Assembly (NCBI GenBank): GCA_028554795.2 | Contig: CM068830.1 | Coordinates: 111,303,214 to 111,367,213, forward strand | Reading direction: 5' to 3' | Length of the DNA: 64,000 bases | Origin: Sinohyriopsis cumingii | Lineage: Eukaryota; Mollusca; Bivalvia; Unionida; Unionidae | Shown: positions 23,256 through 54,710 of the stretch, piece by piece | How the letters are laid out: the number at the start of each line of letters is the position of its first letter | How positions within the stretch are numbered: the stretch's first letter is position 1 | Position numbers and translations under genes: made by a program | The notes under the pieces: generated by a model | Told to the model about the DNA's origin: nothing | Databases searched by the model: none | The model's input: the letters and a program-made list of their open reading frames with translations, nothing else

Positions 23256-23568
23256 AGTAGTAAATGGGGTGAGATTAGCGTCAATGGGAATTAGCATTAC
23301 AGAGACCCCTGGGTCAGATTAGCGTCAAGGGAAATTTAACATGGAGAAAAATCGTGGGTCAGATTAGCGTCAAGGGAAATTAACATGGAGAAAAATCGTG
23401 GGACGGTTTAGCGTCAAAGGAATTTAAACAGGGTGGGACTTTACAGCGTCAAGGGAAATTGAACATGGGATTTTTTTTTTTTTTAATTTTTTTAAAAAAG
23501 GGGTAGGCAATGGAAAGGCTATCTCTTTTCGAGAAATATGGCTGACCCTGAAAAGGGCCTTTGGGTTT
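23256..23568 (+). repeat. Left terminal inverted repeat of element B
   Basis: It matches the reverse complement of 39,761-40,075 with only a few differences, mostly in an AT tract. The outer ~200 bp consists of about five subrepeats of 35-46 bp, each with a GGGxxxGATTAGCGTCAAGGG-type core. The inner edge contains a histone-like hairpin (23,544-23,559), so each terminal repeat carries one such 3'-end signal. Confidence 0.95.
23544..23559 (-). terminator. Histone-type 3' stem-loop 1 (left terminal repeat)
   Basis: On the minus strand it reads GGCCCT-TTTC-AGGGTC, a 6-bp stem (one G-U pair) with a TTTC loop. CCCAAA precedes it, and TCTCGAAAAGAGATAG, resembling a histone downstream element, follows about 12 nt later. 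It lies downstream of the minus-strand accessory gene 23,617-23,977. Confidence 0.8.
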
Positions 23569-23616
23569 TCTTCTTCTTCTTCTGCTTCTAGTTTCTTCTT
23601 TTTCTCCACCAAGTTC

Positions 23617-23977
23617 TTATTTTATCTCCAACACTCTTTCTCTTCTTTTCTTTCTTTTTTTCTCCTGCTCTTCTTTCTTCTTCTCTTCCTCCTCTTCTTT
23701 CTTCCTCTTTTCATTTTCTTCTTCTTTTTCAATTTTTTTATTCCATGCTCTCATCCTTATCCTTTCCTCTTCATCCTCCTTCTCCTCCTTTATTTCTTTC
23801 AACAGATCACTGATGATTTACCTTCATTTTTCGTAAATTGTTTATCTCCATCTTCACTCGATGGGGACTATAAGAATAGTGATCCTCGTTTAGGTTAACC
23901 AACATTTGCTCTATCATTCCTAAATTGTCGAGGACGTTTAGCAATTTTTCCATTTTGTCCATTTGGTTAGAAGCCAT
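23617..23977 (-). pseudogene. Terminal accessory gene 1 of B, frameshifted
   Basis: An ATG at 23,977 opens a 56-codon frame (MASNQMDKMEKLLNVLDN...) ending at TGA 23,807-23,809. A second frame, displaced by +1 and extremely rich in lysine and glutamate, continues to 23,617. The two overlap by a few bases around the TGA, so a +1 shift would link them; a one-base change is equally possible. The upstream region has the shared accessory promoter motif (24,041-24,067) and a TATAAGAACCC box. The 3' side ends in histone-type hairpin 1. The Lys/Glu half is probably a coiled coil. Its counterpart by position in B' (54,095-54,676) has little sequence similarity. The function is unknown. Confidence 0.5.
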
Positions 23978-24040
23978 CTTCTTTTTTTATTCTTTGCAGA
24001 GTGGTTTGAACGACGAATACTGTGGGTTCTTATACGAAAA

Positions 24041-24067
24041 GCGCGGACGTGAAGGAAAACATCCCCC
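24041..24067 (-). promoter_or_regulatory. Shared accessory-gene promoter motif, gene 1
   Basis: The minus strand reads GGGGGATGTTTTCCTTCACG then TCCGCGC. The same block occurs upstream of accessory genes 2 and 3 and of their relatives in B'. It is followed after 4-6 bases by a TATAAGAAC-like box and, about 60 bases further on, the ATG at 23,977. Confidence 0.75.
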
Positions 24068-24097
24068 TACTTTTTCATTTCATATAATAAGACCCAA

Positions 24098-24440
24098 ACT
24101 ATACTCTCCACATACGCTAAGAAACAATAAACAAAGTCCATAATCTACTATCCACACAATCTTACGTGAGCGCTTACAAAACCCTAACTATACTCTCCAC
24201 ATACGCTAAGAAACAATTAACAAAATCGATAATCTACTATCCACACAATCGTACGTGAGCGCTTACAAAACCCAAACTACACTCTCCACATACGCTAAGA
24301 AACAATAAACAAAATCCATAATCTACTATCCACACAATCGTACGTGAGCGCTTACAAAACCCTAACTATACTCTTCACCTACGCTAAGAAACAATAAAGA
24401 AACCCATAATCTACTATTCACATACCTTAGCTCTTACAAG
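24098..24440 (+). repeat. 89-bp tandem repeat, about four copies
   Basis: The phrase ACTATACTCTCCACATACGC (third copy ACTACACTC...) recurs at 24,098, 24,187, 24,276 and, diverged, 24,365, a spacing of 89 bases each time. Each unit also holds TACGTGAGCGCTTACAAAAC. It lies between accessory genes 1 and 2. Loosely related GTAAGCGCTCA phrases occur in the same spacers of B' without the regular array. Confidence 0.9.
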
Positions 24441-24558
24441 CACCAACACACAAACACATACCCTCACACTATCTTAAAAAAGAGTTAGTGTTTATATTCA
24501 CACTACTCTACCTACACATTGGCAAATTGATGGTTATTTCTTTTCTAGAGTATTGGGT

Positions 24559-24574
24559 AGCCCTGAAAAGGGCT
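24559..24574 (-). terminator. Histone-type 3' stem-loop 2
   Basis: On the minus strand it reads AGCCCT-TTTC-AGGGCT, a perfect 6-bp stem with a TTTC loop. It is followed by ACCCAAT and then CTCTAGAAAAGAAATA, a purine-rich downstream element. It lies about 35 bases after the stop of the gene at 24,607-24,984. Confidence 0.85.
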
Positions 24575-24606
24575 GTTTTTTTGTTTGGAACTTCATGGAC
24601 ACCTGG

Positions 24607-24984
24607 TTAATGGTGGCACCTTCCAGGCCTGGCGCCGCATACACATCTTATCCCCCAGTTACTTTTTACCTTTTGGGGCGAGAGAGCAGAGGCAGGATAT
24701 GTCGCTTCAGAATCCCAATTTTCGCTCTCTGGGATTCTGAAATTTCTTCTTCTTCTCTCCTTTTCCTCCTCCTCCTCTTCTTTGTATCTTCTCTCCTCCT
24801 CTTTGTATCTTCTTTCCTCTTCTTCTTTATATCTTCTCTCCTCCTCTTCTTTGTTTCTTCTTTCCTCCTCCTCTCTTATCCTTCCCTCCTCCACAATGGC
24901 TTCCGCGGCCAGTTCATTTAATATGCGCCTGGCATATTCCAGATGCACATGAAGTTCCAACAGTTTCTCCAGTCTCGTGTTCAT
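24607..24984 (-). CDS. Terminal accessory gene 2 of B
   Basis: The frame encodes 125 residues from ATG 24,984. The N-terminus MNTRLEKLLELHVHLEYARR is predicted helical and resembles that of accessory gene 3 (MCSKLAKLNEAYVNL), so the two are probably paralogues. Residues ~40-80 are a repeated REEEERR/YKEEE coiled-coil-like stretch. The C-terminus has CVCGARPGRCHH, a possible Cys/His metal site that is conserved in B' (53,303-53,596). Upstream are the shared promoter motif (25,050-25,075) and an ACTATAAATTG TATA box, and downstream is histone-type hairpin 2. The glutamate-rich tract is shorter in B', showing repeat-length variation. The function is unknown. Conservation of both ends between two diverged elements supports a real gene. 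Confidence 0.75.
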   Translation of the reverse strand: MNTRLEKLLELHVHLEYARRILNELAAEAIVEEGRIREEEERRNKEEEERRYKEEEERRYKEEERRYKEEEEEEKERRRRNFRIPESENWDSEATYPASALSPQKVKSNWGIRCVCGARPGRCHH

Positions 24985-25049
24985 TTTTGGTGTTGATCAA
25001 TCAACAAGGGTAGTTGGACTGCCGAACGAGTTTCAATTTATAGTGAAAG

Positions 25050-25075
25050 CGCGTACGTGAAGGAAAACATCCCCC
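25050..25075 (-). promoter_or_regulatory. Shared accessory-gene promoter motif, gene 2
   Basis: The minus strand reads GGGGGATGTTTTCCTTCACG then TACGCGC, followed by CACTATAAATTG, a good TATA box. The ATG is about 65 bases further on. A degraded extra copy lies at about 25,131-25,150. Confidence 0.75.
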
Positions 25076-25448
25076 TAAAAACATAAAATTGATCTTACCT
25101 AGATCATGACCAAAAAAAAAATAACAACAACGCGCGGACCTAAAAGAAACACTCACTCACTTTTTTATTCTACCCATCACTATTTTAAAATTTTTTATAA
25201 ATCACTTCAATTGACTATCCACATACTCAAAGCAATCCAATCTAACCCCTAAATCTACACCTCAAACACCAAATAAAGACATCATTTTAATCTACTATCC
25301 ACACCAACGTACTTGATCACTTACAAACACACAAACTCACAAACACATACCCTCACATTTTTTAAAAAGAATTAGTGTTTATTTTCACACTACTCTACCT
25401 ACACACATTGGCAAATCGATCGTTATTTCTTTTCTAGAGTATTTGGGT

Positions 25449-25464
25449 AGCCCTGAAAAGGGCT
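25449..25464 (-). terminator. Histone-type 3' stem-loop 3
   Basis: On the minus strand it reads AGCCCT-TTTC-AGGGCT, followed by ACCCAAATACTCTAGAAAAGAAATAA. It sits about 28 bases after the stop of accessory gene 3. The surrounding ~100 bases are nearly identical to those around hairpin 2. Confidence 0.85.
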
Positions 25465-25492
25465 GTTTTTTTTGTTTGCTATGGCATTCCTT

Positions 25493-25852
25493 TTAGTTTC
25501 TAAGAATGCGATGTCCTCTGAGGATAGACTTTCTGGCGATAGGTCTGCTTCTTCGAAAAGAGAAGAAGAACTCTTTGGTGTCGATACGACAATCGACAAA
25601 GCCTCTGTCAGCTTCAGGTTGCTGCTGCTGTTGTTGTTGTTGCTGCTGTTGCTGCTGTCTCTGAAGTCTGTACTTCTCTGTCCATTCTTCTTTTTCCCTG
25701 TTCATTTCTTCTCTGAAGAGCTCTTCTATCAGGTCTTCAGTGATTTTTAACATTCTCACATTCTCTATTTCTTCTGGCTTCGGTATCAGACTGTGTCTGA
25801 CCCTATGCAAATTCACGTAGGCTTCGTTGAGCTTAGCTAGTTTGGAGCACAT
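25493..25852 (-). CDS. Terminal accessory gene 3 of B, poly-Q protein
   Basis: ATG 25,852 (MCSKLAKLNEAYVNL) gives 119 residues. Longer versions rely on a TTG and are not favoured. The N-terminal half is helical with KPEEIENVRM and LIEELFREEM segments. A glutamine tract of about 14 residues follows, then a basic C-terminus ending RGHRILRN. The relative in B' (52,427-52,798) keeps the tract and tail but has one stop. The shared promoter motif lies at 25,920-25,945 with TTTAAGAACC next to it, and histone-type hairpin 3 lies downstream. The function is unknown; the N-terminus looks paralogous to accessory gene 2. Confidence 0.75.
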   Translation of the reverse strand: MCSKLAKLNEAYVNLHRVRHSLIPKPEEIENVRMLKITEDLIEELFREEMNREKEEWTEKYRLQRQQQQQQQQQQQQQPEADRGFVDCRIDTKEFFFSFRRSRPIARKSILRGHRILRN

Positions 25853-25919
25853 CTTCGTAGGAGGATGAGTCGACAATGGATGGTTAGACTGGAAACAACC
25901 CCGGTTCTTAAAGTCAAAG

Positions 25920-25945
25920 CGCGGACGTGAAGTAAAACATCCCCC
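25920..25945 (-). promoter_or_regulatory. Shared accessory-gene promoter motif, gene 3
   Basis: The minus strand reads GGGGGATGTTTTACTTCACG then TCCGCGC, followed by TTTGACTTTAAGAACCGGGG. The B' counterpart at 52,336-52,360 is followed by the same TTTAAGAACCGGGG. Confidence 0.75.
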
Positions 25946-26075
25946 ACACGGTTTTTGAGTCGCAACGTTTAGTGAGTGTCATGAGAGGGATAGTAAGAAA
26001 TGAAAGAGCATCAATCCAACATTCTTATAGCTAAACAAAAGACAAAGGCATTTTTTTCAAAACACAACATTTTTT

Positions 26076-26081
26076 TTTATT
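26076..26081 (-). terminator. AATAAA poly(A) signal of the capsid transcript
   Basis: AATAAA on the minus strand lies about 110 bases after the capsid stop. It is conserved in B' at 52,205-52,210. It contrasts with the histone-type ends of the accessory genes. Confidence 0.7.
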
Positions 26082-26097
26082 CAAAAATCACTTAACA

Positions 26098-26184
26098 CTA
26101 AACAACAACAACTCCAACATTTTTTAACAATAATCCAACACAAAAAGTTTCTCCACTAGGTAAAGAGGGATAACAGTCTTCCAT
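26098..26184 (-). pseudogene. Remnant of the gene upstream of the protease (deletion junction)
   Basis: The first 13 codons (MEDCYPSLPSGET) match the start of the B' gene at 51,012-51,512. The sequence then jumps near 26,145 to sequence matching B' around 52,150. About 1.1 kb is therefore missing from B, comprising the rest of this gene and the whole adenovirus-type protease. The remaining 28-codon frame is a deletion by-product. Confidence 0.85.
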
Positions 26185-26189
26185 GGTTT

Positions 26190-27503
26190 CTAGTAATCTA
26201 GGATGACTTCTCTCAAACTGTTGATTTCTATCGTATTATCGAATTCTGCATACAGGATGACGTTCACCGTTTCATCAGGGTCTCGGTCTTTAAACTGAAT
26301 TTCCACACGAATCTGGCCGGATTTTATAGGGTGGAAATGTCCCTCGTCGCTGCCTTGGTCTGGAGTGAAATCGAAAGCCCACAAAGCGTAGCCTCCTGCA
26401 TAATCCTCGTACGTAATACCGTGACTGGTATTGGTTCCTAACTGTCCGGTGGCTTCGTACAAGGACAAGTACGATCTCAAGTAATTCTTCTTTTTAAAGT
26501 CAGGTTCGAAAGGTCGGGTACACAAGGTCTTGCCATCGCGACTGACTTCGATTTTGGACACGCCAAAGTGTTGAAAGTAGAAAGGATTTTTTTCGGCAGC
26601 TCCGTTGAAGGCTGTATTCTCGACGATACCAACGATCAAACGTTTGGGTAACTGTCCTTGGAACAGATGATCTTCGATCATGGATCGCTGTCCCTTGGGA
26701 ATGGTGAAGGTTTTCATTTCCACGCGTCGTATGGGATACTTGGCGGTCGTTCTGCTCAACGTCTGACTGATGTCGTTTCCCACTTTAGGTAACACTTCCA
26801 CACGGCGTACGTAGAGTCTGGCTTCTAGGATTTTAGTTTTGTAACCGTCACTATCAGCCATCAAATGGAAAGCGGCACTGCTACGATTCAGTCTCAGGCG
26901 GACATCCACCCCATTCAGCAAATACTTTTCTTGCAACCACATGTCCAAATGCAAACGATCCATCAGTTCTAAACTTGTGTCGGCTCCCGTGATTCTCTTT
27001 CTTTGTTCTACAAATCCATCATTGTTGTCTTTCTTTTCATCAGTTTCCAATATTTCAAACTTGGTAGGTTCGTCAGCTTCCCATACCACACAGGCATTGA
27101 GATGAGTGTTCTTGGCATCTATTCCGTACGTCAAGAGATTTTCCAGGTAGGCACGATAAGGGTAAGTATCCATGCTGCTACTGACCAGTTTGTTATTCAA
27201 GTACAAGTCCACTCCACTGAACAAGGAATGCATGAAATTGTTGACGGGAGCTACTGCTTCATCGTCTATAGCACCTCCAGTCTTATCTAGAATTTTGACT
27301 TTCAGGTACAAGTAACTGCTATTCAGATCGATGTAATCTTCGGGCTGTCCTTTGATTTCAAACTCGATGGGAGCAGAATCGGTCAGTGAGGAGACGGGGC
27401 GAAATTCCACCCACTGGGATTCTTGCATCGTCATCATGGTGGGGGGCATGGCAAACAGATCCAGTTCCGTCTTGGAACAAGCGCAAGATTCTCGGTGCAT
27501 CAT
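26190..27503 (-). CDS. Major capsid protein, double jelly-roll (hexon-like)
   Basis: ATG 27,503 gives 437 residues; a longer frame relies on TTG. The protein matches the Polinton capsid family, often annotated F54H12.2-like. It has PEDYIDLNSSYLYLK (~60-75), NNFMHSLFSGVDLYLN (~95-110), SSSMDTYPYRAYLENLLTYG, an IPKGQRSMIEDHLFQGQLPK block (~285) and a C-terminal EDYAGGYALWAFD then NVILYAEFDNTIEI. These proteins form the trimeric capsomers of an icosahedral particle. The gene is intact, with 17 bases between it and the preceding core-protein stop, and has a conserved AATAAA downstream. The B' copy is broken. Confidence 0.92.
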   Translation of the reverse strand: MMHRESCACSKTELDLFAMPPTMMTMQESQWVEFRPVSSLTDSAPIEFEIKGQPEDYIDLNSSYLYLKVKILDKTGGAIDDEAVAPVNNFMHSLFSGVDLYLNNKLVSSSMDTYPYRAYLENLLTYGIDAKNTHLNACVVWEADEPTKFEILETDEKKDNNDGFVEQRKRITGADTSLELMDRLHLDMWLQEKYLLNGVDVRLRLNRSSAAFHLMADSDGYKTKILEARLYVRRVEVLPKVGNDISQTLSRTTAKYPIRRVEMKTFTIPKGQRSMIEDHLFQGQLPKRLIVGIVENTAFNGAAEKNPFYFQHFGVSKIEVSRDGKTLCTRPFEPDFKKKNYLRSYLSLYEATGQLGTNTSHGITYEDYAGGYALWAFDFTPDQGSDEGHFHPIKSGQIRVEIQFKDRDPDETVNVILYAEFDNTIEINSLREVILDY

Positions 27504-27520
27504 TTTTTTTGCCTCTTTTC

Positions 27521-27937
27521 TCAATGATCGAAAACGTCTAAGTCTCGAACGGTTCTTCTTTTCTTGGCCTTTCTCGCTTGAAGTCTGGTGAAAGGGTGTT
27601 TTCTTCGTCGTCTCTTTCTGCCTTGTCCTTGCTGAATGCCTGACTCGGTAGCGTGCAGGGCATTTATAGGTGTTTCTCGTTGGCCTAAAATGTCTTTGCC
27701 CGTTTGCAGCAAGACATTTTTGCCTGCCCTCATGAAGGCTTCTTTAGGGTTTTGTTTGTCGATGATGACATTTTGGAGAAATTCTTTGCCTTGCGTCAGT
27801 GCCGCATCTTTCAAGGCGTGCAATCCGCGTGTCACCATCGGTTTCAACACCGGGGCCACCGAACGAAAGGCCGATTTTAACATATCTCCTAAGCCGTGTC
27901 CTCGCTGTCGAGCAACCCCTCGGTACACTGGATACAT
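27521..27937 (-). CDS. Basic core protein with GLG motif (PX/VII-like)
   Basis: The 138-residue product begins MYPVYRGVARQRGHGLGDML and ends with arginine/lysine clusters (GRKRRRRKHPF, KAKKRRT), as expected of a DNA-condensing virion protein. The MYPVYRG..RQ.GHGLG start and the FR...P.LK segment recur next to the capsid gene in other Polintons and adintoviruses. It starts seven bases after the penton stop, so it is part of the tightly packed late cluster. B' has the same gene with a one-base deletion and a stop. A structural or packaging role is inferred. Confidence 0.75.
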   Translation of the reverse strand: MYPVYRGVARQRGHGLGDMLKSAFRSVAPVLKPMVTRGLHALKDAALTQGKEFLQNVIIDKQNPKEAFMRAGKNVLLQTGKDILGQRETPINALHATESGIQQGQGRKRRRRKHPFTRLQARKAKKRRTVRDLDVFDH

Positions 27938-27944
27938 GACTTAC

Positions 27945-28869
27945 TTACGAGTCGTGAGAGATCCGTTTTTGAAAATGGAGTTTCACCGTGACTTTTCCTT
28001 TGGTGAATGAAATATTTTGTCCCAGATCTCCTTTTATAGCAATGTTGACCGTGTCCAAATACGACTTACTGACAGGCAAATAGTGAGGATGTACAAATTC
28101 GCGGTGGACGTGGTAAGTGTTTCCACCTTCCTCGTCAGCGTCCGTGGCAGAATCTACTTTGAAAGGAATGACACGCAGTAACGGTACGGAGGTGTGTCCC
28201 ACCACGTTGTACTCCACCACATCGGAATACAAGAACATCAAATTCAGTCCTTGGTTCAGTTCTACCGGGGCACGAAATAACTTGCTAAAAGACTCGTTGT
28301 CGTAAACGATGGGTAATTCGTTTTTCTTGAGCATGGCCTTTCTCATGTCCATGTCTCCGCCCAACATGTCAAACAATTCAGGACAAAATAAAATGGACAC
28401 GATTTTACTTCGTTCAAATTTCATCAAGAAGCGACGAGCTGCTTTGTGGTACTCCATGGTGACATTTTTGTTGACATGCTCCAAAGCTTTCAGAAACACG
28501 ACATTAAACCTGGAGGTTATGGTGCTGACCAAATGTTGACCACTAAAATAATAGTCTGGGGGAATGAACAAGTGATAGGTGGTGTACTTTTGTGTACGGG
28601 TTTTCTTGTCATATTTGACATTCCTATCCATCCACTGTTGCATTTGCTCGTCATGAACTTCCACATCAAAAAAAATTTTGATTGTGAAGGACATTGAGGA
28701 CTTGGGTCGGGTGAATCATTTCTACTAAAGCCACTTCCCAATGGGCTTCGTGATCTAACTGGATGGCTTGAGGTAATTTGGCCGTGTAACAGCACAACGT
28801 GTTCTTGGGAAACACCTCCATGGAACTGTCACTGGGCAAAGTTAAGTAAAATTGGTTTTGGTGACTCAT
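27945..28869 (-). CDS. Penton (minor capsid) protein, split by a conserved +1 frameshift
   Basis: The N-terminal frame (ATG 28,869) carries YLTLPSDSSMEVFPKNTL and HWEVALVEMIHP, the signature start of Polinton single-jelly-roll pentons. It ends at TGA 28,666-28,668 after a run of eight T. The rest (DVEVHDEQMQQ..., NLMFLYSDVVEYNVVGHTSVPLLR, HREFVHPHYLPVS, GKVTVKLHF) lies in the +1 frame, ending at 27,945. An internal ATG at 28,694 exists in the second frame. B' has exactly the same split at T8-TGA (48,501-48,510). Either the ribosome shifts +1 at TTT-TGA, or transcription slips on T8, or two overlapping proteins are made. Total about 300 residues, the normal family length. Its ATG overlaps the upstream stop as ATGA. 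Confidence 0.85.
28666..28675 (-). promoter_or_regulatory. Candidate +1 frameshift site in the penton gene
   Basis: AAT TTT TTT TGA on the minus strand: eight T followed by a UGA codon in the first frame, with the second frame continuing one base on. The site and the 175-base distance from the start to the second-frame ATG are identical in B'. Confidence 0.6.
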
Positions 28870-29285
28870 AATTCCAGAGTTCTGTGGCTGTCCGAGTGGA
28901 TATTACTGGACGTCAGAGGCGTGTCTCCGTCTAAAATGGGGTTCTGATTGTGGTTGAAGTGGTGACTGGCACTGGCACTGGACACAAGGTTCCCGGGGTT
29001 CCCGTTCGAGGAGAATTTCAGGGAGGGATTAGGAAGCAGGTAACCGATGCAACTGCTCAATAAAATGGTCCACAATTGTTTGTCTCCTTGTTGCAAACTC
29101 AAATTGGCAATGGCTGCCCCGATGACACAATACACCACGAAGATTTGGCAGAAAAAGACGATTTGCGTTTTAGGCACACGTTCTCCACACCACACCCACA
29201 AGGGTTGTTTTTGTAAATCTTGCACAGAAGAACTAGGTGAAGGAGGAGTGGTCGACGTAGCTGCGTCTGCTGTGTGAAAGGGCAT
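28866..29285 (-). CDS. Small membrane protein of the late cluster
   Basis: ATG 29,285 gives 139 residues (a GTG nine bases upstream is ignored). Residues ~40-95 hold a hydrophobic segment (VFFCQIFVVYCVIGAAI) and a second one before SSCIGYLLPNPSLK. The LLSSCIGYLLPNP phrase is a conserved signature of a membrane protein of unknown role encoded beside the penton in Polintons. The C-terminal tail is rich in Ser/Asn. The start follows the integrase stop by five bases and the stop overlaps the penton start (ATGA), in both B and B'. This suggests polycistronic translation by reinitiation. A role in the virion membrane or in release is conjecture. Confidence 0.75.
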   Translation of the reverse strand: MPFHTADAATSTTPPSPSSSVQDLQKQPLWVWCGERVPKTQIVFFCQIFVVYCVIGAAIANLSLQQGDKQLWTILLSSCIGYLLPNPSLKFSSNGNPGNLVSSASASHHFNHNQNPILDGDTPLTSSNIHSDSHRTLEL

Positions 29286-29290
29286 GATGG

Positions 29291-30400
29291 TCACTTCTTT
29301 TTATAGTCGATGACTTGCGAAGCGTCGATCCAAGAATCAAAACTGGGCGGATATCCTTTCCAACGTACTTTGACTTCTTTGACACGTCGTTTGCCCACTT
29401 TACGGGTTCTGCGTTCGAGAATGCTTTCGATGTCGTACACGTCGTCTTCTTTTTTGGTCACACGTTGTAACTCGGGCAAATAAAACGTTCCTTTGAGCAC
29501 TTCTCCGTTCATGTCTTCCAATTTATAGACGGCAGGATGACGGCCATGCACTCGTCCAGTGACGCGAAACAATTCGGTCGTCCAGTTAGGTAAGTAACCT
29601 TTGTCGAAAGTGCGTTTGGTTTTGCCAATGCGCACCCAATCTCCTACGGCAAACATTCCACTTTTCTCGGGGACAGCCCTCGTCGGGAACGTACCAAACA
29701 GACGCTCAAACACCAACACTTCGTTGTCGGGAGTCACGTCTTGCGGGGCACGTCCGATGCTTCGATGGTAAGATTGGTTGTACGCTTGCACCAGGTGCGG
29801 TAAGATGTCGATGTACTTCAGAGTGTGGTGATGCGTAAAATATTTCCACATGTATTCTTTCAAAGTGCGTTGAAAACGTTCCACGATGCTGGCTTTGGTT
29901 TCGGGATTGTCGGTGGTAAAAAAATGAATGTCACGTTTCTTTAATTCTTTCTGGAAAGCTTGGTTCAGAAATTCGGTACCTTTGTCCGTTTGCCATCGAA
30001 GAGGGTGACGACCGCTTTATTTCAACACCCGTTGCAGGGCTCGCACTAACTCGCTGCTCGATTTGGAAGTCAAGGGCACGACCCAGGCAAATTTGGAAAA
30101 GACGTCGATGACACAAAACAAATATTTGTAGCCACGATTGTAGCTGGCCAAATGAGAGACATCGGCTAAATCGGCTTGCCATTGATGATCGATGCCTTCC
30201 ACTCGGGTGCGACTTCTGGCAAACTTGCGTCGAATGGGTTTGTGTAAAGTGTAGGTAGCTTGTTCTTGTATACATCGTTGCACTTGAGGTAAACGGAGAC
30301 TTTTCAGTCGCGTTTTGGCAGCACGATACAATTTTTGAACTCCTGCGTAACCTGCAGGATGGGAGGGATCGTAGTAAATGCTGGCTAAGACTTTTTCCAT
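29291..30400 (-). pseudogene. Chromodomain DDE integrase with one in-frame stop
   Basis: The locus spans 369 codons from ATG 30,400. It shows the rve core with QADLAD (first Asp, ~77), QTDKGTEF (second Asp, ~139) and SIVERFQRT (Glu, ~173), then GDWVRIGKTKRTFDKGYLPNW, the SH3-like part, and a C-terminal chromodomain (DDVYDIESIL...VRWKGYPPSFDSWI, ~320-366). A chromodomain directs integration to particular chromatin. An in-frame TAA at 30,017-30,019 follows VLQRVLK, between the first two catalytic aspartates. B' has a sense codon there and its own TAA elsewhere. As it stands only an N-terminal fragment would be made. Confidence 0.9.
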
Positions 30401-30421
30401 TTTTTTGTGTTGGTTGGTGTG

Positions 30422-31066
30422 TTAATAAGACACCCACTCTTGGAGGATGCTACTCTTTTTCTCTTGGGGTATTTTCTTGGATTGCAATGCTTTGCGTGTG
30501 CGGCCAGCAATAGGTGTCGAAGAGGAGAAGGATGTCTGAGCGGGGTATATCGGTTCTTGTTTCACTTCTGTCTTCACTTCTGTCTTCACTTTCCTTTTCT
30601 CTTGTGAGGAAGAAGGGGTGGCCATCATCTTTTTAATCCATCCAATTCTGGAGGTAGGTGGTGTTGTTAACTTGCGTACTTTTTCTGGTGGAGTTTGAAA
30701 CCCTTCTTCTTCTTCTCCTTTTTCTGTCTTGGTCACGGGTACTGGTGGTACTGGTACTGGTACTGGTACTGGTGATGGTGCTGGACTTTTCATCAAGGTC
30801 TTAAAATCTTTCAGAGTGGGTAGAGCTGTTTCGTCTAAAGCTTTCTGGTGAAAGAGTTGCAGTCGTTGCAAAAGTTGACCGTACTTTTGCGATTTTTCTG
30901 TTTCGGACAAATCTTGGCGATCCATTAAGGACTGCAATTCGTGTTGTAACTGGGACATCTGGCTCAAATGGGGATTGGGAGGTAAATGCGGGGTGTGTTG
31001 TTCTTGCCACCGATGGCATTCCATCCATCGTTTGTAAGGCACTAAAGCTAGTTTTCGTCCTTCCAT
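30422..31066 (-). CDS. Proline-rich virion-associated protein (LVPYKRW type)
   Basis: The 214-residue frame starts MEGRKLALVPYKRWMECHRW. A short N-terminal block of basic residues followed by LVPYxRW/Y is shared by an uncharacterised protein next to the integrase in many Polintons. Residues ~45-95 are helical (LQHELQSLMDRQDLSETEK, YGQLLQRLQLF). A (VP)n proline stretch follows, then a Lys-rich disordered part and the C-terminal SILQEWVSY, which B' retains as SITEEWVTY. The helix may form a coiled coil. No enzymatic motif is seen. The frame is intact here, whereas the B' copy has two stops. The role is unknown, probably structural. Confidence 0.7.
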   Translation of the reverse strand: MEGRKLALVPYKRWMECHRWQEQHTPHLPPNPHLSQMSQLQHELQSLMDRQDLSETEKSQKYGQLLQRLQLFHQKALDETALPTLKDFKTLMKSPAPSPVPVPVPVPPVPVTKTEKGEEEEGFQTPPEKVRKLTTPPTSRIGWIKKMMATPSSSQEKRKVKTEVKTEVKQEPIYPAQTSFSSSTPIAGRTRKALQSKKIPQEKKSSILQEWVSY

Positions 31067-31114
31067 GGGGTTGTCAGGGGTCGATTCTGAGATCTTGGAA
31101 CTTCCGAGGCCTTC

Positions 31115-31501
31115 TTATCTTGCTCCCACCAGTCCTCCCAACATGGTTCCCAAGACTCCTTTCAGTATGGGGCCTAACAAGAGAGGTAAAATACCTCCAC
31201 GTTGCACTAACATCTTCTTTTTTTGACGAATGGGAATTTTCTTTTGAACCATTTGGCGAAGAACGTGACGATATTTGCCTAAGCATTCTTTCTGGTGTTT
31301 GGACAAAGGGATCGTGCCTTTCAAAACGTTCAAACAACATTCGCACACGGTATCGATGACCTCTTTGGAGGCCGATTGAATGAGTTTTTCTCGTAGGGGT
31401 GGAGAAGCTTTGGACAGGACAGATAACATGTCCCCATGTTTGGCTAAACGTGGTGGCAGTCCTTTCCTTTTCTTTCCTTGGGGTTTTCTGGAGTGTGACA
31501 T
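31115..31501 (-). CDS. Small basic core protein (ECCLNVLKG family)
   Basis: ATG 31,501 gives 128 residues (a longer frame to 31,531 would put the start beyond the likely transcription start). CCAGTATAAAAC, a TATA box, lies about 50 bases upstream. The body has LSVLSKASPPLREKLIQ, then CECCLNVLKGTIPLSKHQKECL, KKKMLVQRGG and a C-terminal hydrophobic glycine-rich segment (LPLLLGPILKGVLGTMLGG). This pattern (ECxxNVLxGxxPLxxxQ, KKxLVQxGG, hydrophobic tail) is a recurrent small protein in Polintons and adintoviruses, possibly a membrane-active or DNA-binding core protein. It is intact in both B and B'. Confidence 0.8.
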   Translation of the reverse strand: MSHSRKPQGKKRKGLPPRLAKHGDMLSVLSKASPPLREKLIQSASKEVIDTVCECCLNVLKGTIPLSKHQKECLGKYRHVLRQMVQKKIPIRQKKKMLVQRGGILPLLLGPILKGVLGTMLGGLVGAR

Positions 31502-31548
31502 CTTTGAGTCTTCAGGAGCACCAAAAAACACTGATACCCGACTTGGTC

Positions 31549-31557
31549 ACAGGCCTG
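31549..31557 (-). promoter_or_regulatory. TATA box of the core-protein gene
   Basis: The minus strand reads AGTATAAAA about 50 bases before ATG 31,501. In B' the equivalent is GATAAAAGG near 45,547. Confidence 0.6.
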
Positions 31558-31559
31558 TT

Positions 31560-32475
31560 TTATACTGGAACGCGTCGCCACTGATTGTCTTTACGTCGTA
31601 TTAGTTTGAGGACAGGCATGACACGTCGTGCAGGGGTACGTAACGGACTAAATCGAGCCAGTTCTTGTTTGGACAAATCCAGTAAACTTTGTAACATGCC
31701 CGATCTTTCCTGAACTTTGATTTTGGGAGAAGGTACTTTGTGAGCAGCAGCCACTGCCACTAAATTGGAAGGTCCTGCCACTGGGGAAGTTCTTTTGGGG
31801 GTCATCAACGGAGAAGTTCTTGGTGTGATCAACGTCTCCAAGTACTCTTCAGTTCTGGGTGTCATTAACGGAGAAGTGGACAAACGTGAAGCTGCCGGAG
31901 ACGCAGTCACCGCTGTGGCAGGTCGTGGTTTGCGAGTGTAAGGTTGCGTCCTGGCCGAAGTGCCTCTCTTGCGACTAGTTTTCTGTGGACTTTTCTTTTT
32001 CTGGGTGCTTCTTTTCTTTTTCCGGGGTGGTGTCTGGTCAGAGGAGGGTCCTGCCACTGGAGAAGTTCTCCTTGGTGACCTGGTCTTTTTCTTCTTGGGG
32101 CTTCGTTGGACTTTTGTCTTGGGTATAACTTTGGGGGCATTAGGATCCCATCTTAAGAGTGAGCGAATGATGACCCCTCCTAGAGTACCACTCCCTCCAG
32201 GTTTCAAAATGATTTGCTTTTTGGTTTGAGTGTCGATGCGGGGATCGGCCAGTTGGACCAAAGCGACTTTGTTTCGATCGAAAAAGCGTTTGGTTTGATG
32301 AGGAATCTGAATGATTCCTTGGAGTATTTGACGTGCCGTCACCGTGAACCATCGTAAGACTTCTTTGAGACTAGCTTCTAAGACACGAGCTCGTGTTTGT
32401 GGATCTTTTTCTCGACTGATGCCATACAAGGCACGAATCAATTTGACGGGAAGATGCGACTGAAGGGACGTCATG
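31560..32475 (-). CDS. Large Lys/Arg-rich core protein, DNA-binding
   Basis: ATG 32,475 gives about 304 residues. The upstream part of the open frame to 32,711 overlaps the ATPase gene, and a TATA box (TCTATAAAAACC, about 32,514-32,525) lies just before this start. The N-terminal ~100 residues (HLPVKLIRALYGIS, ADPRIDTQTKKQIILKPGG, GGVIIRSLL) follow the same plan as the smaller core protein: helix, basic loop, GG, hydrophobic stretch. They may be paralogous. The middle is a very basic disordered region (SPKKKKTRSPRR, PPRKKKRSTQKKK) with repeated TSPVAGPS and SPLMTPRT motifs, followed by a helical C-terminus (MLQSLLDLSKQELARFS). A genome-condensing core protein is inferred. The B' copy is truncated at its 5' end. 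Confidence 0.7.
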
Positions 32476-32513
32476 TTCGCACTGAGAGTGAGACAGACGA
32501 AAAAGGGTCTGAG

Positions 32514-32525
32514 GTTTTTATAGAT
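32514..32525 (-). promoter_or_regulatory. TATA box of the large core-protein gene
   Basis: The minus strand reads TCTATAAAAACC about 45 bases before ATG 32,475. It lies within the end of the ATPase gene region. Confidence 0.55.
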
Positions 32526-32530
32526 TTTTT

Positions 32531-33273
32531 TTATGGGGAGTGAAATGAAGTCGAGGACGGATACGTGTACAGGACAGGCCCTCCGTCTTGGCACCAGTGG
32601 TGAAACAAGTGGGTACGAAATCGCAAATCCTCGGGGGTCGTAGGTTTCAAATCGACGAGTAAATAGGCGTGTGGAGTTTGAGTGGCATCGTCGTACGCCT
32701 GAGTCAGCCAAGGCGTTCCTAACTGTTTGGCTAAGACTTGCACTTGCGATTTATCTCGAGGGCTTTTAAACAAGACCACGTAATGCGCATTGAGACTGAG
32801 GGTGCGATGGGCTTTACTTTGTTGAAACAAATTTTGGGTGATGCAAACGACACTGGCATTACGGTGATGCCCTTTGCGGGTGAACCACAGTTTAATTTCT
32901 TCTTCGTCTTCTCCTAACATGTCGTCGAAAATGACCAAATGGATTAGACGGGAGTCAGAGACGATGCCATCGTCTTCTTTAGGAATGCCTTCCACAAACA
33001 CGATGGAATCGCCTTGACTTTCTCGCAAGAGGCTGTACGCCGATTGCCACTCTTTGTAACACCACACGATTCGTTGAGGGGTCGATCGATCAAATGATGT
33101 TTATGTTCGATCAAACGTTTGACGAATTCGGTTTTGCCTGAACCGCTAGGTCCAGCAATGAGCATGTTAAAGGGATGGCGAAGATACAAAGCCTCCCAAC
33201 TGGCACGATCTAAGTGTTCGTCGATGACTTTGACAGTAGAGGAAGAGGGAGCAGAGACAGCAGAGGTAGCCAT
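32531..33273 (-). pseudogene. FtsK/HerA-type genome-packaging ATPase, frameshifted
   Basis: ATG 33,273 opens a frame with FNMLIAGPSGSGKTEFVKR (Walker A, ~residue 40). The downstream frame has VWCYKEWQSAYSLL, RLIHLVIFDDML (Walker B), ASVVCITQNLF and a C-terminal LLVDLKPTTPEDLRFR. These are the motifs of the packaging ATPase that pumps DNA into capsids in Polintons and related viruses. The two parts lie in frames displaced by one base, and the switch must occur near 33,075-33,095, close to a repeated GATC-type stretch. B' lacks this region, so whether the shift is decay or programmed cannot be judged here. A TATA box lies at 33,321-33,328. Confidence 0.88.
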
Positions 33274-33320
33274 GGTGTGAGAAATGTCACTTGTGACACG
33301 AAAAACAAACAAGACAAGAG

Positions 33321-33328
33321 TTTATATA
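33321..33328 (-). promoter_or_regulatory. TATA box of the ATPase gene
   Basis: The minus strand reads TATATAAA, about 50 bases upstream of ATG 33,273. The poly(A) signal of the preceding unit lies about 16 bases upstream of it. Confidence 0.65.
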
Positions 33329-33343
33329 CTTTTTCAGAACACG

Positions 33344-33349
33344 TTTATT
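33344..33349 (-). terminator. AATAAA poly(A) signal after polB and the membrane gene
   Basis: AATAAA on the minus strand, just after the stop of the gene at 33,357-33,764 and immediately before the ATPase TATA box. This gives a compact end-to-start transcript boundary. Confidence 0.65.
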
Positions 33350-33356
33350 GAATGTT

Positions 33357-33764
33357 TCAAACATGAATACGAAAGACAAAAATGCATAAAAGCCAAAGGC
33401 TTAAGTACAAGAATAAAAGGCACATGATAACCATGAACGTGGAATAAACACAAGTGTCTGTACAACATGTTTTGGGTAAAGTTCTAACCAGTTCTATAGT
33501 AGGGGGTAAGGTCACACAAGTGTCCTCCCGAAAGGGTCTTTCAGGCCTGTCCACGACAGTCCTGTCCTGGGTGACGGGTTCTTCTGGCACCGTCACTAAC
33601 ACAGGTTGAAAAGTAACTTTTTTCCTTGAATAACTCTCGTGCATACTGGGCCACCTCTTGTGTCCAAGCCTCAAAACCCTGGTCTCGGTGATGTCCAACA
33701 TTTGACTCCTAACCAATCTGGTTTCTTCTTCGTCAACGACATGGTAAGTTACTTCAATGAACAA
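33357..33764 (-). CDS. Putative single-pass membrane protein
   Basis: The open frame encodes up to 135 residues but has no ATG at its 5' end. It opens with TTG at 33,764, just four bases after the polymerase stop, and the first ATG is internal (QMLDITE, about residue 22). The C-terminal ~35 residues are strongly hydrophobic (FMVIMCLLFLYLSLWLLCIFVF) and end in a short basic tail, typical of a C-anchored membrane protein. The middle is acidic/basic and proline-rich. Expression by frameshifting from polB, by reinitiation or from the internal ATG are all possible. I do not recognise the family. Confidence 0.5.
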   Translation of the reverse strand: MFIEVTYHVVDEEETRLVRSQMLDITETRVLRLGHKRWPSMHESYSRKKVTFQPVLVTVPEEPVTQDRTVVDRPERPFREDTCVTLPPTIELVRTLPKTCCTDTCVYSTFMVIMCLLFLYLSLWLLCIFVFRIHV

Positions 33765-33768
33765 TGAA

Positions 33769-36700: not shown

Positions 36701-37830
36701 GAACAAGGCACTGGTCCTTCGCTGAGACAGGGTGCAGAGGCCAAACATCCTGGGCATTTCATTCCACAATGCTTGTGTTGCTCTCGATTGTTATAACCAT
36801 AGTCACATTTCTCACAATAATAACTGTATCCCAGGAATCCAGTGATACTGGTAATGGTATCGAAATGGTCATCGTGATGATAGACATGAATATATTTTCC
36901 GTCCTTAAAATCTTGGCCTCGAAACAACAGAGTTCCACGCATTTCTTGAGGGTGCACTTTCAAGGTGTAGCGTGGAGCTAGGGCATCTTGCAATTTTTGC
37001 ATCTCAGGAATGCCACAGGGTGTGTCTTTGGACAGTCCGGCTTGTTGTAACAGGAGTTCTGCTTCATTTCGTTGTTTGGCTCGGTCGGATTGTTGAATAG
37101 TTTTCCAGGTTCTTTTCCATTCTACCGTGTCGTTCTTGTTGGCATAGGTTCGTCCCACCACGATGGCACGGGCTAAACACATCTGGTCTTGAGGGTTGTT
37201 AATTCGGACGAGACTCTTTTTGGTGTTGCGAAGGTCGTCCACCAGTAACATCTTTTTGCGTCCAGTCCCTTGAGGAGGAGAGACGTGGGTCATGTCCAGT
37301 GTGGCTTTTCCATCGGTGATGTCAAACTGATCATTGGATTGTTGTACGTGTTGAATTTTGTCCATGACTTTGGAAGTGGTCAATTCTGCAGGGGTGCTAA
37401 ACTCGATCCAAACAGGGGATTTCAAACAGTCGTGTTGTATGGAAAGTCTCAAGCGATCGTCTTCTTTGGGTTGACATTGTCGCTTGAGTGTGGTGAGCAA
37501 AGAATCCCACACTCCGGTGATGAACCCTTCTGCTTTCTCTAACGGTACTTCAGCCTTGAAATCTTTAAACTTCACCATGTATTTGTAAGCCGTGGTTCTA
37601 AATTTTCTAGAGGAGCGCTTTTCCGTCTCTCGAATGGAATAGTATTTTTCAGGGTTGACTAAGAGTGGCGAACTTGGTTTAGAGGGTTCGGATTCTGGTT
37701 CACTCATGTCCTCTTCAAAATCACTGGCATGAATTTGTGCCAAGACTTCAGCTCTGGTACGAGGCGATAGATCACGTTTCTGCCTCTTACTTTCTTCTTT
37801 TTTCTTCTCGAATGAATAGGATCGTTTCAT
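33769..37830 (-). pseudogene. polB: Protein-primed family B DNA polymerase with one in-frame stop
   Basis: The locus spans 1,353 codons from ATG 37,830. The N-terminal ~450 residues are basic and cysteine-rich (YYCEKCDYGY, CGMKCPGC). Then follow Exo I IFFDFEC (~470), Exo II AHNFSGYDGQ (~562), Exo III YCRSDVDIL (~687), a GCLFHGCPVCYP segment, pol A YLDVCSLYP (~913), KVMLNCLWGK (~1,103) and pol C YFDTDSCIYI (~1,199). All catalytic motifs are intact. A TAA at 34,615-34,617 (codon 1,072) separates pol A from the other two polymerase motifs, so normal translation yields an inactive N-terminal protein. The frame is continuous either side, indicating a single recent substitution. This polymerase copies the linear element from a terminal protein primer. 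Confidence 0.93.
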
Positions 37831-38447: not shown

Positions 38448-38544
38448 ACAAGGAGAAAGAAGAAGTCAATGAACTTTTAATTAAAGTGTTGTGCTGTGAA
38501 TTGGATTGTAAAAAATGGATAAAAGAATACATGAATGATATAAG

Positions 38545-39745: not shown

Positions 39746-39760
39746 TATTAATATTAACAT

Positions 39761-40075: not shown

Positions 40076-40081
40076 TATATT
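40076..40081 (+). repeat. Target-site duplication, right (TATATT)
   Basis: An exact copy of 23,250-23,255 directly outside the right terminal repeat. Confidence 0.95.
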
Positions 40082-51006: not shown

Positions 51007-51011
51007 AAGCC

Positions 51012-52204: not shown

Positions 52205-52210
52205 AATAAA
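52205..52210 (+). terminator. AATAAA poly(A) signal (B' late cluster)
   Basis: Conserved with 26,076-26,081 of B, after the protease gene. Confidence 0.7.
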
Positions 52211-52335: not shown

Positions 52336-52360
52336 GGGATGTTTTCCTTCACGTCTGCGC
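52336..52360 (+). promoter_or_regulatory. Shared accessory promoter motif, B' gene 3
   Basis: GGGATGTTTTCCTTCACG then TCTGCGC, followed by TTTGACTTTAAGAACCGGGG, as upstream of accessory gene 3 in B. Confidence 0.75.
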
Positions 52361-52836: not shown

Positions 52837-52852
52837 AGCCCTTTTCAGGGCT
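52837..52852 (+). terminator. Histone-type 3' stem-loop 6
   Basis: AGCCCT-TTTC-AGGGCT preceded by AAAAAC and followed by ACCCAAATCTCTAGAAAAGAAATAA: the same flanks as hairpins 2 and 3. Confidence 0.88.
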
Positions 52853-53208
52853 ACCCAAATCTCTAGAAAAGAAATAATCGATTTGCCAGTGTGTGTGTAT
52901 GTAGAGTAGTGTGAATATAAACACTGACTCTTTTTTTCTAGTGTGAGTGTATGTGTTTGTGTTTGTAAGCGCTCAAGTAGGTTAGTGAGGATAGTAGATT
53001 ATGATCATGTTTTGTTTTTTTTTGCTGTTTGACGTGCATGGATAGTGGATTTTGGGTTCGATTTGACTGCTTTGCGTATGTGGATAGTATATTATTAGTT
53101 TAATGAAATTTTTTAGAATAGTGATGGGTAGTATAAAAAAGTAAGTGATTGTTTCTTTTAAGTCCGCGTGTTGTTTGGTCATGATCTAGGTAATATAAAT
53201 TTTGTTTT

Positions 53209-53236
53209 AGGGGGATGTTTTCCTTGACGTCTGCAC
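53209..53236 (+). promoter_or_regulatory. Shared accessory promoter motif, B' gene 2
   Basis: GGGGGATGTTTTCCTTGACG then TCTGCAC, followed by AGTATAAATTG, a TATA box in the same place as in B. Confidence 0.75.
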
Positions 53237-53596: not shown

Positions 53597-53623
53597 CCAG
53601 GTGCCCTGGAGTTCAAAACAAAC

Positions 53624-53639
53624 AGCCCTTTTCAGGGCT
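53624..53639 (+). terminator. Histone-type 3' stem-loop 7
   Basis: AGCCCT-TTTC-AGGGCT preceded by CAAAC and followed by ACCCAAACCTTTAGAAAAGAAATAG. Confidence 0.88.
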
Positions 53640-53936
53640 ACCCAAACCTTTAGAAAAGAAATAGTAATCGATTTGCCAATGTGTGTATGTAGAGTGGTGT
53701 GAATATAAACATCGACTCTTTTTTCCTAGTGCGAGTGTATGTGTTTATTTGTAAGTGATAAAGTAGGTTAGTGTGAATGGTAGATTTCGGGGTTTTGTAA
53801 GCGCTCACATACGTTTGTGTGGATAGTAGAGTATGGATTTAATTATAATGCTTTGCGTGTGTGAATAGTAGATTTGGGGTATGTTTATTGCTGTTTCACG
53901 CATGTGGATAGTAGATAATATGAAATGAGAAAAGTA

Positions 53937-53962
53937 GGGGATGTTTTCCTTCACGTCCGCGC
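53937..53962 (+). promoter_or_regulatory. Shared accessory promoter motif, extra copy
   Basis: GGGGATGTTTTCCTTCACG then TCCGCGC, followed at 54,005-54,030 by a second copy (GGGGGATGTTTTCCTTCACG then TACGCGC) that lies next to a TATAAGAACCC box. The upstream copy has no TATA next to it. Confidence 0.7.
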
Positions 53963-54004
53963 GTTTTAAGTGATAATCTAGGTAATATAAAAAAAAATTT
54001 TTTA

Positions 54005-54030
54005 GGGGGATGTTTTCCTTCACGTACGCG
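54005..54030 (+). promoter_or_regulatory. Shared accessory promoter motif, B' gene 1
   Basis: Motif followed by TTTAGCTATAAGAACCCTCAGTGTTCG, matching the TATAAGAACCC of B gene 1. ATG at 54,095. Confidence 0.75.
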
Positions 54031-54094
54031 CTTTAGCTATAAGAACCCTCAGTGTTCGTTATTCGCCCCATTCCACGGAATAAACAAAACGAAG

Positions 54095-54676
54095 ATGGAA
54101 GTGTCCCAACTGTTTAACAATTTAAGGCATGCTTATTTTTGGATGGTGGATGGGGAATGTGGAGTTGAAAGGATTGAAAGAGATTGGAGGTTAAGAACAA
54201 GTCTGCACTACGTGAACGAATTAAAATTAGCCAGGGAGATGATAGAGGGATTAACTGAAGAAGAAGTGAAGAGATTGAGAGGTCTGATAAATCCCCCTTA
54301 TATCAGAGTGGGGACAATAAAAGAGGCCATGGAGAAGGTAAAAGAAGAAAGAAGATTCTTGGAAGAGATAGAACAAAAGTCACAGTGGCCCTTTGTCAAA
54401 AGGAGTGTTGAACAATTGAAAAAAGGGGAAGAAAAGATGAGAAAGGTGATAGATGAAGAAGTGCAGAAAATCAAGGACAGGTGGGCAAAAGATAGGAAAG
54501 AAGAAGAAAATAGAAAGAAAAAGGAAGAACTACAGAAACTAAACGCTAACTGGATGAAAATCCAACAGAAGTTTCGAGCCATGGGTCACCCGGACTGGAT
54601 ACCGGAAACAGAAAAGAATAAGAAGAAAGGAATGATGGAAAAAATAAGGGGATGGATAAAGAAGTTCAGGAGTTAG
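54095..54676 (+). CDS. Terminal accessory gene 1 of B', helical Lys/Glu-rich protein
   Basis: ATG 54,095 gives 193 residues. MEVSQLFNNLRHAYFWM is followed by a long helical region with EEEVKRLRGLI, EKVKEERRFLEEIEQK, a Lys/Glu coiled-coil-like block (AKDRKEEENRKKKEELQ) and a C-terminal GMMEKIRGWIKKFRS, amphipathic and basic. It occupies the same position as B gene 1 but sequence similarity is weak. The promoter motif and histone-type hairpin 8 (19 bases after the stop) bracket it. Function unknown. Confidence 0.7.
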   Translation: MEVSQLFNNLRHAYFWMVDGECGVERIERDWRLRTSLHYVNELKLAREMIEGLTEEEVKRLRGLINPPYIRVGTIKEAMEKVKEERRFLEEIEQKSQWPFVKRSVEQLKKGEEKMRKVIDEEVQKIKDRWAKDRKEEENRKKKEELQKLNANWMKIQQKFRAMGHPDWIPETEKNKKKGMMEKIRGWIKKFRS

Positions 54677-54694
54677 AAGAAGATGAAACCCAAA

Positions 54695-54710
54695 GGCCCT
54701 TTTCAGGGCC
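54695..54710 (+). terminator. Histone-type 3' stem-loop 8
   Basis: GGCCCT-TTTC-AGGGCC preceded by CCCAAA and followed by ACTCCAATCTCTCGAAAAGAGATAG. It is the equivalent of hairpin 1/5 at the inner edge of the terminal repeat. Confidence 0.9.

Follow-up and report, generated by a model that had tools for sequence, protein, structure and literature searches.

In the bivalve Sinohyriopsis cumingii, a family of Polintons very probably expresses its accessory genes via the host's replication-dependent histone gene system, with histone-type 3′ ends behind these genes and host-type histone promoter boxes in front of most of them. A pattern scan of the window—the whole 64-kb stretch of DNA that was analysed—located all eight histone-type hairpins of an earlier sequence-only reading where that reading had placed them (Table 1). 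The exact stem-loop RGCCCTTTTCAGGGCY is present at seven sites and the eighth, at 23544, differs at a single position, where a G-U pair is retained. A chance origin is ruled out by a shuffle control: with three or fewer mismatches allowed, shuffled windows held 0.86 matches on average and 0/100 reached eight. As had been claimed, all eight hairpins sit on the coding strand directly 3′ of accessory genes. The distance from the stop codon, put at 19–60 nt by that reading, is indeed short, namely 18–32 nt at the six sites preceded by an ATG frame that stays open for at least 60 aa (here 77–193 aa); the window's copy lacks such a frame at 23544 and 52837.

The hairpins had been assigned to one Polinton, and this part of the claim did not hold: they belong to two elements, the full-length A and the partial, inverted B (about 45028–55148). 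The sites at 23544 and 39770 lie in opposite arms of the same terminal inverted repeat (TIR) and are therefore not independent. Element A resembles Polinton/Maverick (adintovirus-like) elements in its 6-bp target duplication, its TIRs, a type-B polymerase that is presumably protein-primed, a putative capsid gene and putative integrase pieces with a chromodomain. The candidate integrase frame is interrupted, one piece matching rve at 28.3 bits (under the cutoff of 32.6) and the other Chromo at 33.6 bits (over its cutoff). The product of 26190–27503 has no Pfam match and is taken by us to be the major capsid protein from its likeness to ‘F54H12.2-like’ proteins.

Table 1. Features of the window (position 1 is its first letter).
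Feature	Position	Strand	Remarks
Element A, full-length 16.8-kb Polinton copy	23256..40075		TIRs, flanking TATATT, DNA_pol_B_2, Chromo, sub-cutoff rve
Target-site duplication TATATT (6 bp), left	23250..23255	+	
Target-site duplication TATATT (6 bp), right	40076..40081	+	
Left TIR	23256..23568	+	inner edge adjoins hairpin; 3′-end signal inside TIR
Right TIR	39761..40075	-	arrangement as in left TIR
Type-B DNA polymerase, viral/organellar family	34615..37830	-	PF03175, E 1.3e-37
Putative major capsid protein gene	26190..27503	-	
Accessory gene, 125 aa	24607..24984	-	
Accessory gene, 119 aa	25493..25852	-	
Accessory gene, 186 aa	38732..39292	-	predicted as a single long helix; protein search gave 20 relatives
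Accessory gene, 77 aa	39512..39745	+	
Accessory gene, element B, 97 aa	53303..53596	+	
Accessory gene, element B, 193 aa	54095..54676	+	
Hairpin 1	23544..23559	-	in left TIR, after leftward accessory gene with broken frame
Hairpin 2	24559..24574	-	32 nt past stop of 24607–24984
Hairpin 3	25449..25464	-	28 nt past stop of 25493–25852
Hairpin 4	38691..38706	-	25 nt past stop of 38732–39292; top Rfam score in window, 41.2 bits
Hairpin 5	39770..39785	+	in right TIR, 24 nt past stop of 39512–39745
Hairpin 6	52837..52852	+	element B, after broken relative of 25493–25852
Hairpin 7	53624..53639	+	27 nt past stop of 53303–53596
Hairpin 8	54695..54710	+	18 nt past stop of 54095–54676
Downstream element GAAAAGAGATA	23520..23530	-	
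Downstream element GAAAAGAAATA	24535..24545	-	
Downstream element GAAAAGAAATA	25424..25434	-	
Downstream element GAAAAGAAATA	38667..38677	-	
Downstream element GAAAAGAGATA	39799..39809	+	
Downstream element GAAAAGAAATA	52866..52876	+	
Downstream element GAAAAGAAATA	53653..53663	+	
Downstream element GAAAAGAGATA	54724..54734	+	
H1/H2B-type box	24041..24064	-	23/24 to host H2B; upstream of broken gene ending at hairpin 1
H1/H2B-type box	25049..25072	-	22/24; upstream of 24607–24984
H1/H2B-type box	25919..25942	-	22/24; upstream of 25493–25852
H1/H2B-type box	52337..52360	+	22/24; upstream of broken gene ending at hairpin 6
H1/H2B-type box	53213..53236	+	20/24; upstream of 53303–53596
Promoter box, distal copy	53939..53962	+	22/24
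H1/H2B-type box	54008..54031	+	22/24; upstream of 54095–54676
H4-type box	25129..25149	-	21 nt identical to box upstream of host histone H4
H4-type box	53152..53172	+	19/21 nt
AATAAA after capsid cluster, element A	26076..26081	-	108 nt past capsid stop
AATAAA after capsid cluster, element B	52205..52210	+	130 nt past stop at 52074

Six accessory ORFs in the window are single open frames, as histone genes likewise are (PMC5706932). A place for the accessory proteins in known families was rejected. Among the five accessory frames of 97–193 aa, which were scanned against Pfam, four had no match and 24607–24984 had a MAP7 match below its cutoff. Neither of the two accessory frames scanned matched PHROGs, PDB sequences gave nothing better than E 0.014 for the one accessory protein compared, and the predicted structure of one such protein is a single long helix (mean pLDDT 69.6).

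The interpretation of the hairpins as having the geometry of histone 3′ ends is supported both by Rfam and by the host's own histone genes. The Histone3 model (RF00032) matches all eight window sites at E ≤ 7.2e-4 (27.4–41.2 bits), three of them above the curated gathering cutoff of 34 bits and five below, and the hairpins of the host histone genes, which have the same kind of stem, score 35–39.4 bits against it. The converse comparison was strongly positive as well, in that a model built solely from the element's sites (R1) finds the six histone 3′ ends in a host histone repeat and has no match at E ≤ 1 in 12 other loci. Six-bp stem and four-nt UUUC-type loop at all eight sites, an ACCCA-type flank and a purine element 13–14 nt past the stem are all features of metazoan replication-dependent histone genes; one class of element genes departs from the RF00032 histone ends in that its first stem pair is A-U.

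The downstream element, which the sequence-only reading had seen 10–20 nt past the stem, proved to be GAAAAGARATA beginning at 13–14 nt in every case. This motif occurs nine times in the 64 kb against 0.16 expected, and eight of these occurrences are the ones 3′ of the eight hairpins. The host uses the same spacing: GAAAAG lies 13–14 nt past the stem in all five histone genes of one unit. When the window is taken together with 30 genome loci, 64 of 65 hairpins have GAAAAG, with at most one mismatch, beginning at +13 or +14. As these sites were chosen at no more than one mismatch to the stem pattern, conservation of the stem is there by construction, which is not so for ACCCA and the downstream element. 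At the 35 sites that are not themselves a search match, ACCCA and the downstream element have mean majority frequencies of 0.94 and 0.90, respectively; the value falls to 0.47 upstream and 0.51 further downstream and is intermediate (0.68 and 0.71) in the stretches immediately flanking the element. Conversely, when sites from the window and the same genome loci were anchored on the downstream element, 90/99 had a stem with at least five of six pairs, compared with 12.3 % of random positions.

As to the presumptive partner of this element, an Rfam search of the host for U7 gave a best match of 29.3 bits (L076), under the cutoff. A pattern from the expected U7 complement hit 55 places versus 72 in a reversed control, and none of the eight of these 55 that were read is U7-like; the two loci with the longest U7-type complement (L097 and L098) adjoin element-like hairpin remains, read antisense.

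Upstream of most hairpin-ended accessory genes lies a promoter box of the host histone H1/H2B type, and some of these genes also have an H4-type box. All seven window copies of the H1/H2B-type box agree with the host H2B box at 20–23 of 24 nt, and a longer version of the motif matches host H2B and H1 at 24/27, where the maximum in 60 simulated sequences plus the 31-kb window flanks was 18. For the H4-type box, the agreement with the host H4 box is 21/21 nt in one window promoter and 19/21 in another. The promoter shared by 38732 and 39512 does not significantly resemble any host histone promoter, and host H3 has no box of the H1/H2B type. With single-frame genes and boxes common to host H1, H2B and H4, the accessory genes resemble replication-dependent histone genes, from which they differ in being carried by a mobile element and in matching no histone in Pfam where scanned.

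The same arrangement recurs elsewhere in the host genome. From 589,472 first-look candidates, 75 places were scored with RF00032, and all 50 of the 75 that were examined are element copies. At 49 of them an accessory-protein match ends near the hairpin, and the remaining one (L032) has promoter boxes only; the top copies reach 45.6 bits. Both hairpin and downstream element are retained in accessory relatives as distant as about 41 % identity. The capsid gene has at least 96 scored copies of 99–100 % identity, and in all three copies chosen by it, three accessory ORFs are each preceded by a box and followed by a hairpin. The expectation that related elements share the hairpin is thus borne out within this genome, but not in eight Polinton-like contigs from bacterial MAGs: none has a Histone3 match at gathering, four have none even at E ≤ 10, and R1 matches none at E ≤ 1. 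Absence is only weakly tested here because the majority of these contigs may stop short of the accessory end. Of the five MAG genomes searched (those of L001, L002, L003, L005 and L007), one gave a weak Histone3 match below the cutoff (24.6 bits, E 2.5e-4) and the other four none. In viral contigs, capsid and accessory queries found nothing, and the hairpin pattern had four matches, none of these four loci matching R1.

Taken with the promoter boxes, the histone-type hairpins suggest that the accessory genes are probably on during DNA copying and that their messages lack a poly(A) tail. In the mechanism we propose, host histone-promoter factors would turn the genes on in S phase, SLBP would bind the hairpin, the U7 snRNP would pair with the downstream element and the histone cleavage complex would cut just past the stem, leaving a tailless message that would be stable only during DNA replication. 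Since each TIR contains the 3′-end signal, transcription heading outward would likewise terminate within the element. On the sequence evidence, we regard it as highly likely that the window hairpins are working histone-type 3′ ends, and S-phase coupling of accessory-gene expression as likely. That the mRNAs are non-polyadenylated and S-phase-restricted had been inferred from the hairpins, and it is an inference that the host-type promoter boxes strengthen.

AATAAA in place of a hairpin had been noted at the late (capsid) cluster and is found there in both A and B, yet it also occurs past two hairpins, 65 nt from the stem at 25449 and 50 nt at 38691 (where a second copy lies 8 nt before the stem), and 64 nt past the first of three hairpins in all three capsid-picked copies. 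Polyadenylation may thus be a back-up at these sites. A dual use, in which SLBP binds the hairpin while most messages are cut and polyadenylated downstream with weak S-phase coupling, would draw on these signals and on ATTAAA downstream of 23544 and 54695, as well as on a report that loss of SLBP in Drosophila leads to use of cryptic downstream poly(A) sites (PMC2781718). We consider it unlikely, given that four of the eight window sites have neither AATAAA nor ATTAAA within 400 nt.

It is very unlikely that the hairpins instead act at the DNA level or as generic terminators, for example as a TIR component or replication signal, with no histone processing. Two of the eight do lie inside TIRs and none is more than about 2.3 kb away from an element end; against this, six are outside the identified TIRs, all follow a gene on its coding strand, most of these genes have host-type histone promoter boxes, and the element also copies non-stem parts needed only by histone processing (ACCCA, and GAAAAG at the host spacing). 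That the cassettes are captured host histone gene fragments carried without function is hardly credible: likeness to the host boxes and 3′ ends suggests a shared origin, but none of 20 window frames searched matches a histone in Pfam, the cassette surrounds several different diverged genes with hairpin and downstream element kept even at about 41 % identity, and these signals are conserved where the flanks have diverged.

The preferred reading, expression through the host histone system, would set this family apart from described Polinton/Maverick elements, for whose accessory genes a literature search judged mostly from listings found no description of histone-type promoters and 3′ ends; a search with the promoter-box letters gave nothing related, by titles. 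Hairpins past stop codons also set mRNA ends in giant viruses such as mimivirus, where their sequence varies and the ends are polyadenylated, whereas this element uses the host histone sequence itself. To our knowledge, histone-type 3′ ends are held to be private to histone mRNAs. A 2009 paper states that there was then no evidence of SLBP functions outside histone biosynthesis (PMC2781718). The closest published report found counts histone 3′ UTR stem-loops of the Rfam type, as in this element, in related virus-like elements (n = 6 in a mixed collection of polinton-like viruses and virophages, none in the cryptophyte ones), the section concerned giving a bare count without position, gene or role (PMC12220804).

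It thus appears probable that a virus-like transposon took over a complete host expression programme, with H1/H2B and H4 boxes before and SLBP/U7-type 3′ ends behind non-histone genes, whose transcription and RNA processing would follow the histone pattern, possibly inside histone locus bodies, and whose mRNAs would be present only during host DNA replication. The element would then hold two gene sets, one histone-like and tied to DNA synthesis in the host, the other with poly(A) ends and including the capsid gene. If true, the histone 3′-end system of metazoans would have a natural use outside histone genes, and a selfish element would contain a cell-cycle switch. Poly(A)-selected RNA-seq could overlook these accessory genes. 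If confirmed by RNA, the arrangement would explain how an integrating DNA element can synchronise a subset of its genes with DNA synthesis in the host, and its many copies would offer a natural reporter of the promoter and 3′-end features needed for histone regulation.

All eight hairpins that a sequence-only reading had called histone-type were found in the window, and each of them matches RF00032, the Rfam model of histone 3′ ends (Histone3), with three exceeding its curated cutoff. Eight of the nine window copies of the downstream element GAAAAGARATA trail one of these hairpins. Rather than belonging to a single Polinton, as had been claimed, the sites are split between element A, a full-length copy that codes for a type-B polymerase, a chromodomain and an integrase match under cutoff, and element B, a second copy that is inverted, diverged and partial. 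The hairpins at 23544 and 39770 are carried by the two arms of one terminal inverted repeat (TIR), the inner edge of which adjoins the hairpin, meaning that element A closes, on either side, with a gene whose histone-type 3′ signal is TIR-borne.

Features of the window by position
Feature	Position	Strand	Remarks
Hairpins	23544, 24559, 25449, 38691, 39770, 52837, 53624, 54695		
Element A	23256–40075		TIRs ~315 bp, near-identical; 6-bp TATATT at both flanks
Element B	about 45028–55148	inverted	diverged partial copy
Repeat in element A	24089–24402		three copies, 89-nt spacing; downstream of hairpin 24559, ahead of next promoter box
Two-CCHC-zinc-knuckle gene	37965–38447	+	adjoins polymerase gene; no terminal hairpin; ATTAAA 32 nt past stop
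Three genes between both Polinton copies	40644–44260		Pox_A32-type ATPase; phospholipase A2 + DUF5679 protein; SF1-type helicase with endonuclease-like end
Dispersed repeat, 291 nt	2205–2495, 20879–21169, 62458–62748		three copies
tRNA-family match	21125–21197		36.1 bits; overlaps one 291-nt repeat copy
25-bp minisatellite array	21699–22179		
8–12-bp array	16570–16773, 17352–17495		

The three genes lying between both copies are unlike those of the Polinton and may belong to a separate virus-like insertion. The overlap with a tRNA-family match suggests that the 291-nt repeat is a tRNA-derived SINE.

The element sites were also compared with the host's own histone genes. These form tandem arrays whose repeat unit measures about 8.3 kb, and each of the three units retrieved contains six RF00032 matches of 35–39.4 bits. 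In one such stretch (L073), where genes were assigned by eye from reading frames, the matches trail H3 (twice, as the stretch enters the next unit), H4, H2B, H2A and H1. Four of these histone genes share the stem GGCCCTTTTNAGGGCC and H1 has GGTCCTTTTCAGGACC; GAAAAG follows 13–14 nt beyond the stem in all five. The element stems are either identical to the host's or read AGCCCT...AGGGCT, i.e. with the first pair changed on both sides, and the stem-to-GAAAAG spacing is the same at 64 of 65 element sites. Conversely, R1, a covariance model trained on the eight element sites alone, retrieves all six histone 3′ ends of one host unit, the H2B end scoring best (58.4 bits).

The likeness extends to promoters, an addition to the earlier reading, which covered 3′ ends. 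The box GGATGTTTTCCTTCACGTCYGCGC occurs seven times in the window, always preceding accessory genes in sense orientation and never in shuffles, and is located 60–66 nt ahead of the first ATG in six copies, the seventh being a distal one. These copies are identical to the host H2B box at 20–23 of 24 nt. With a 27-nt form of the box, host H2B and H1 score 24 and H2A 22 (inverted); H4 scores 18, no better than the maximum of 60 simulated sequences or the window flanks, and H3 gives no fit of 17 or more. A second box, TTTCTTTTAGGTCCGCGCGTT, precedes host H4. One window promoter repeats it without a change across 21 nt, a second agrees with it at 19 of 21 positions, and three other element copies each have it once with up to 3 mismatches. 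The promoter common to accessory genes 38732 and 39512 shows no significant match against host histone upstream regions; GATTGG and TATAAAT motifs were recognized in it by eye.

Across the genome (2.9 Gb, 1138 contigs), an RF00032 scan yielded 75 scored places from 589,472 first-look candidates. Of the 50 examined, 49 have accessory-protein similarity ending near the hairpin and the remaining one has promoter boxes only. At 35 sites other than the search match itself, the window's eight included, the mean majority frequency is 0.94 for ACCCA and 0.90 for the downstream element, compared with 0.47 upstream, 0.51 further downstream, 0.68 in between and 0.71 just after. In three copies selected on the capsid gene alone (a putative label, after 'F54H12.2-like' proteins), this gene is followed by AATAAA and then by three accessory ORFs of 118–129 aa, all of them preceded by a box and trailed by a hairpin; for the last gene in two copies, the examined stretch stops within the downstream element. 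The first accessory gene has an additional AATAAA 64 nt beyond the stem in all three. Among 29,008 candidates for the capsid gene, 96 copies were scored. Spread over many contigs, they are 99–100% identical and free of stops, which suggests a recent expansion of this Polinton family.

The hairpin is kept by the examined copies in the same genome, but none of eight Polinton-like contigs from bacterial MAGs has a Histone3 match at gathering, four lack one even at E ≤ 10 and R1 matches none; nor does R1 match any of the 12 other loci searched at E ≤ 1, which include such contigs. Histone-type signals may therefore not be a general Polinton trait. Among the best 120 of 992 capsid-protein relatives, most are unnamed, the named ones coming from the bivalves Mercenaria, Ostrea, Crassostrea and Saccostrea, apart from a single protein of a Thiodiazotropha symbiont MAG; a bivalve host is therefore probable. 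Accessory 38732 has 20 similar proteins in the database; one, P0132, extends beyond the usual end with residues that would fit an in-frame reading of hairpin and downstream element. Separately, a weak twister-P1 ribozyme-like match (28.9 bits, cutoff 67.2) was seen at 11734–11798 of L002, one of the Polinton-like contigs, which belongs to a Bathymodiolus symbiont MAG.

In the full-text literature searched, drawn largely from outside the subscription journals, we found no description of an arrangement like this one in Polintons, Mavericks, viruses or transposons. The nearest precedent in the portions consulted is one line tallying six histone 3′ UTR stem-loops across PLV and virophage genomes (PMC12220804); a term check of two 2024 preprints on related viruses returned no stem-loops (PMC11071296, PMC11071308).

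Rfam-model and pattern searches of the genome did not find a host U7 gene. Two loci (L097, L098) carry element-like hairpin remnants whose antisense reading mimics the U7 snRNA core, comprising a 12-nt complement of the downstream element and an Sm-like site; such remnants are a trap when searching for U7 in this genome.

Replication-dependent histone genes, according to the parts of the sources consulted, are devoid of introns; SLBP binds the stem-loop, U7 pairs with the downstream element and the pre-mRNA is cut once between the two, without receiving poly(A) (PMC5706932, PMC2781718). The cis signals for such processing are present in the element's sequence, from which we infer all RNA steps for its accessory genes: the hairpin would be bound by SLBP and the downstream element paired to U7, with one cut between them and no poly(A).
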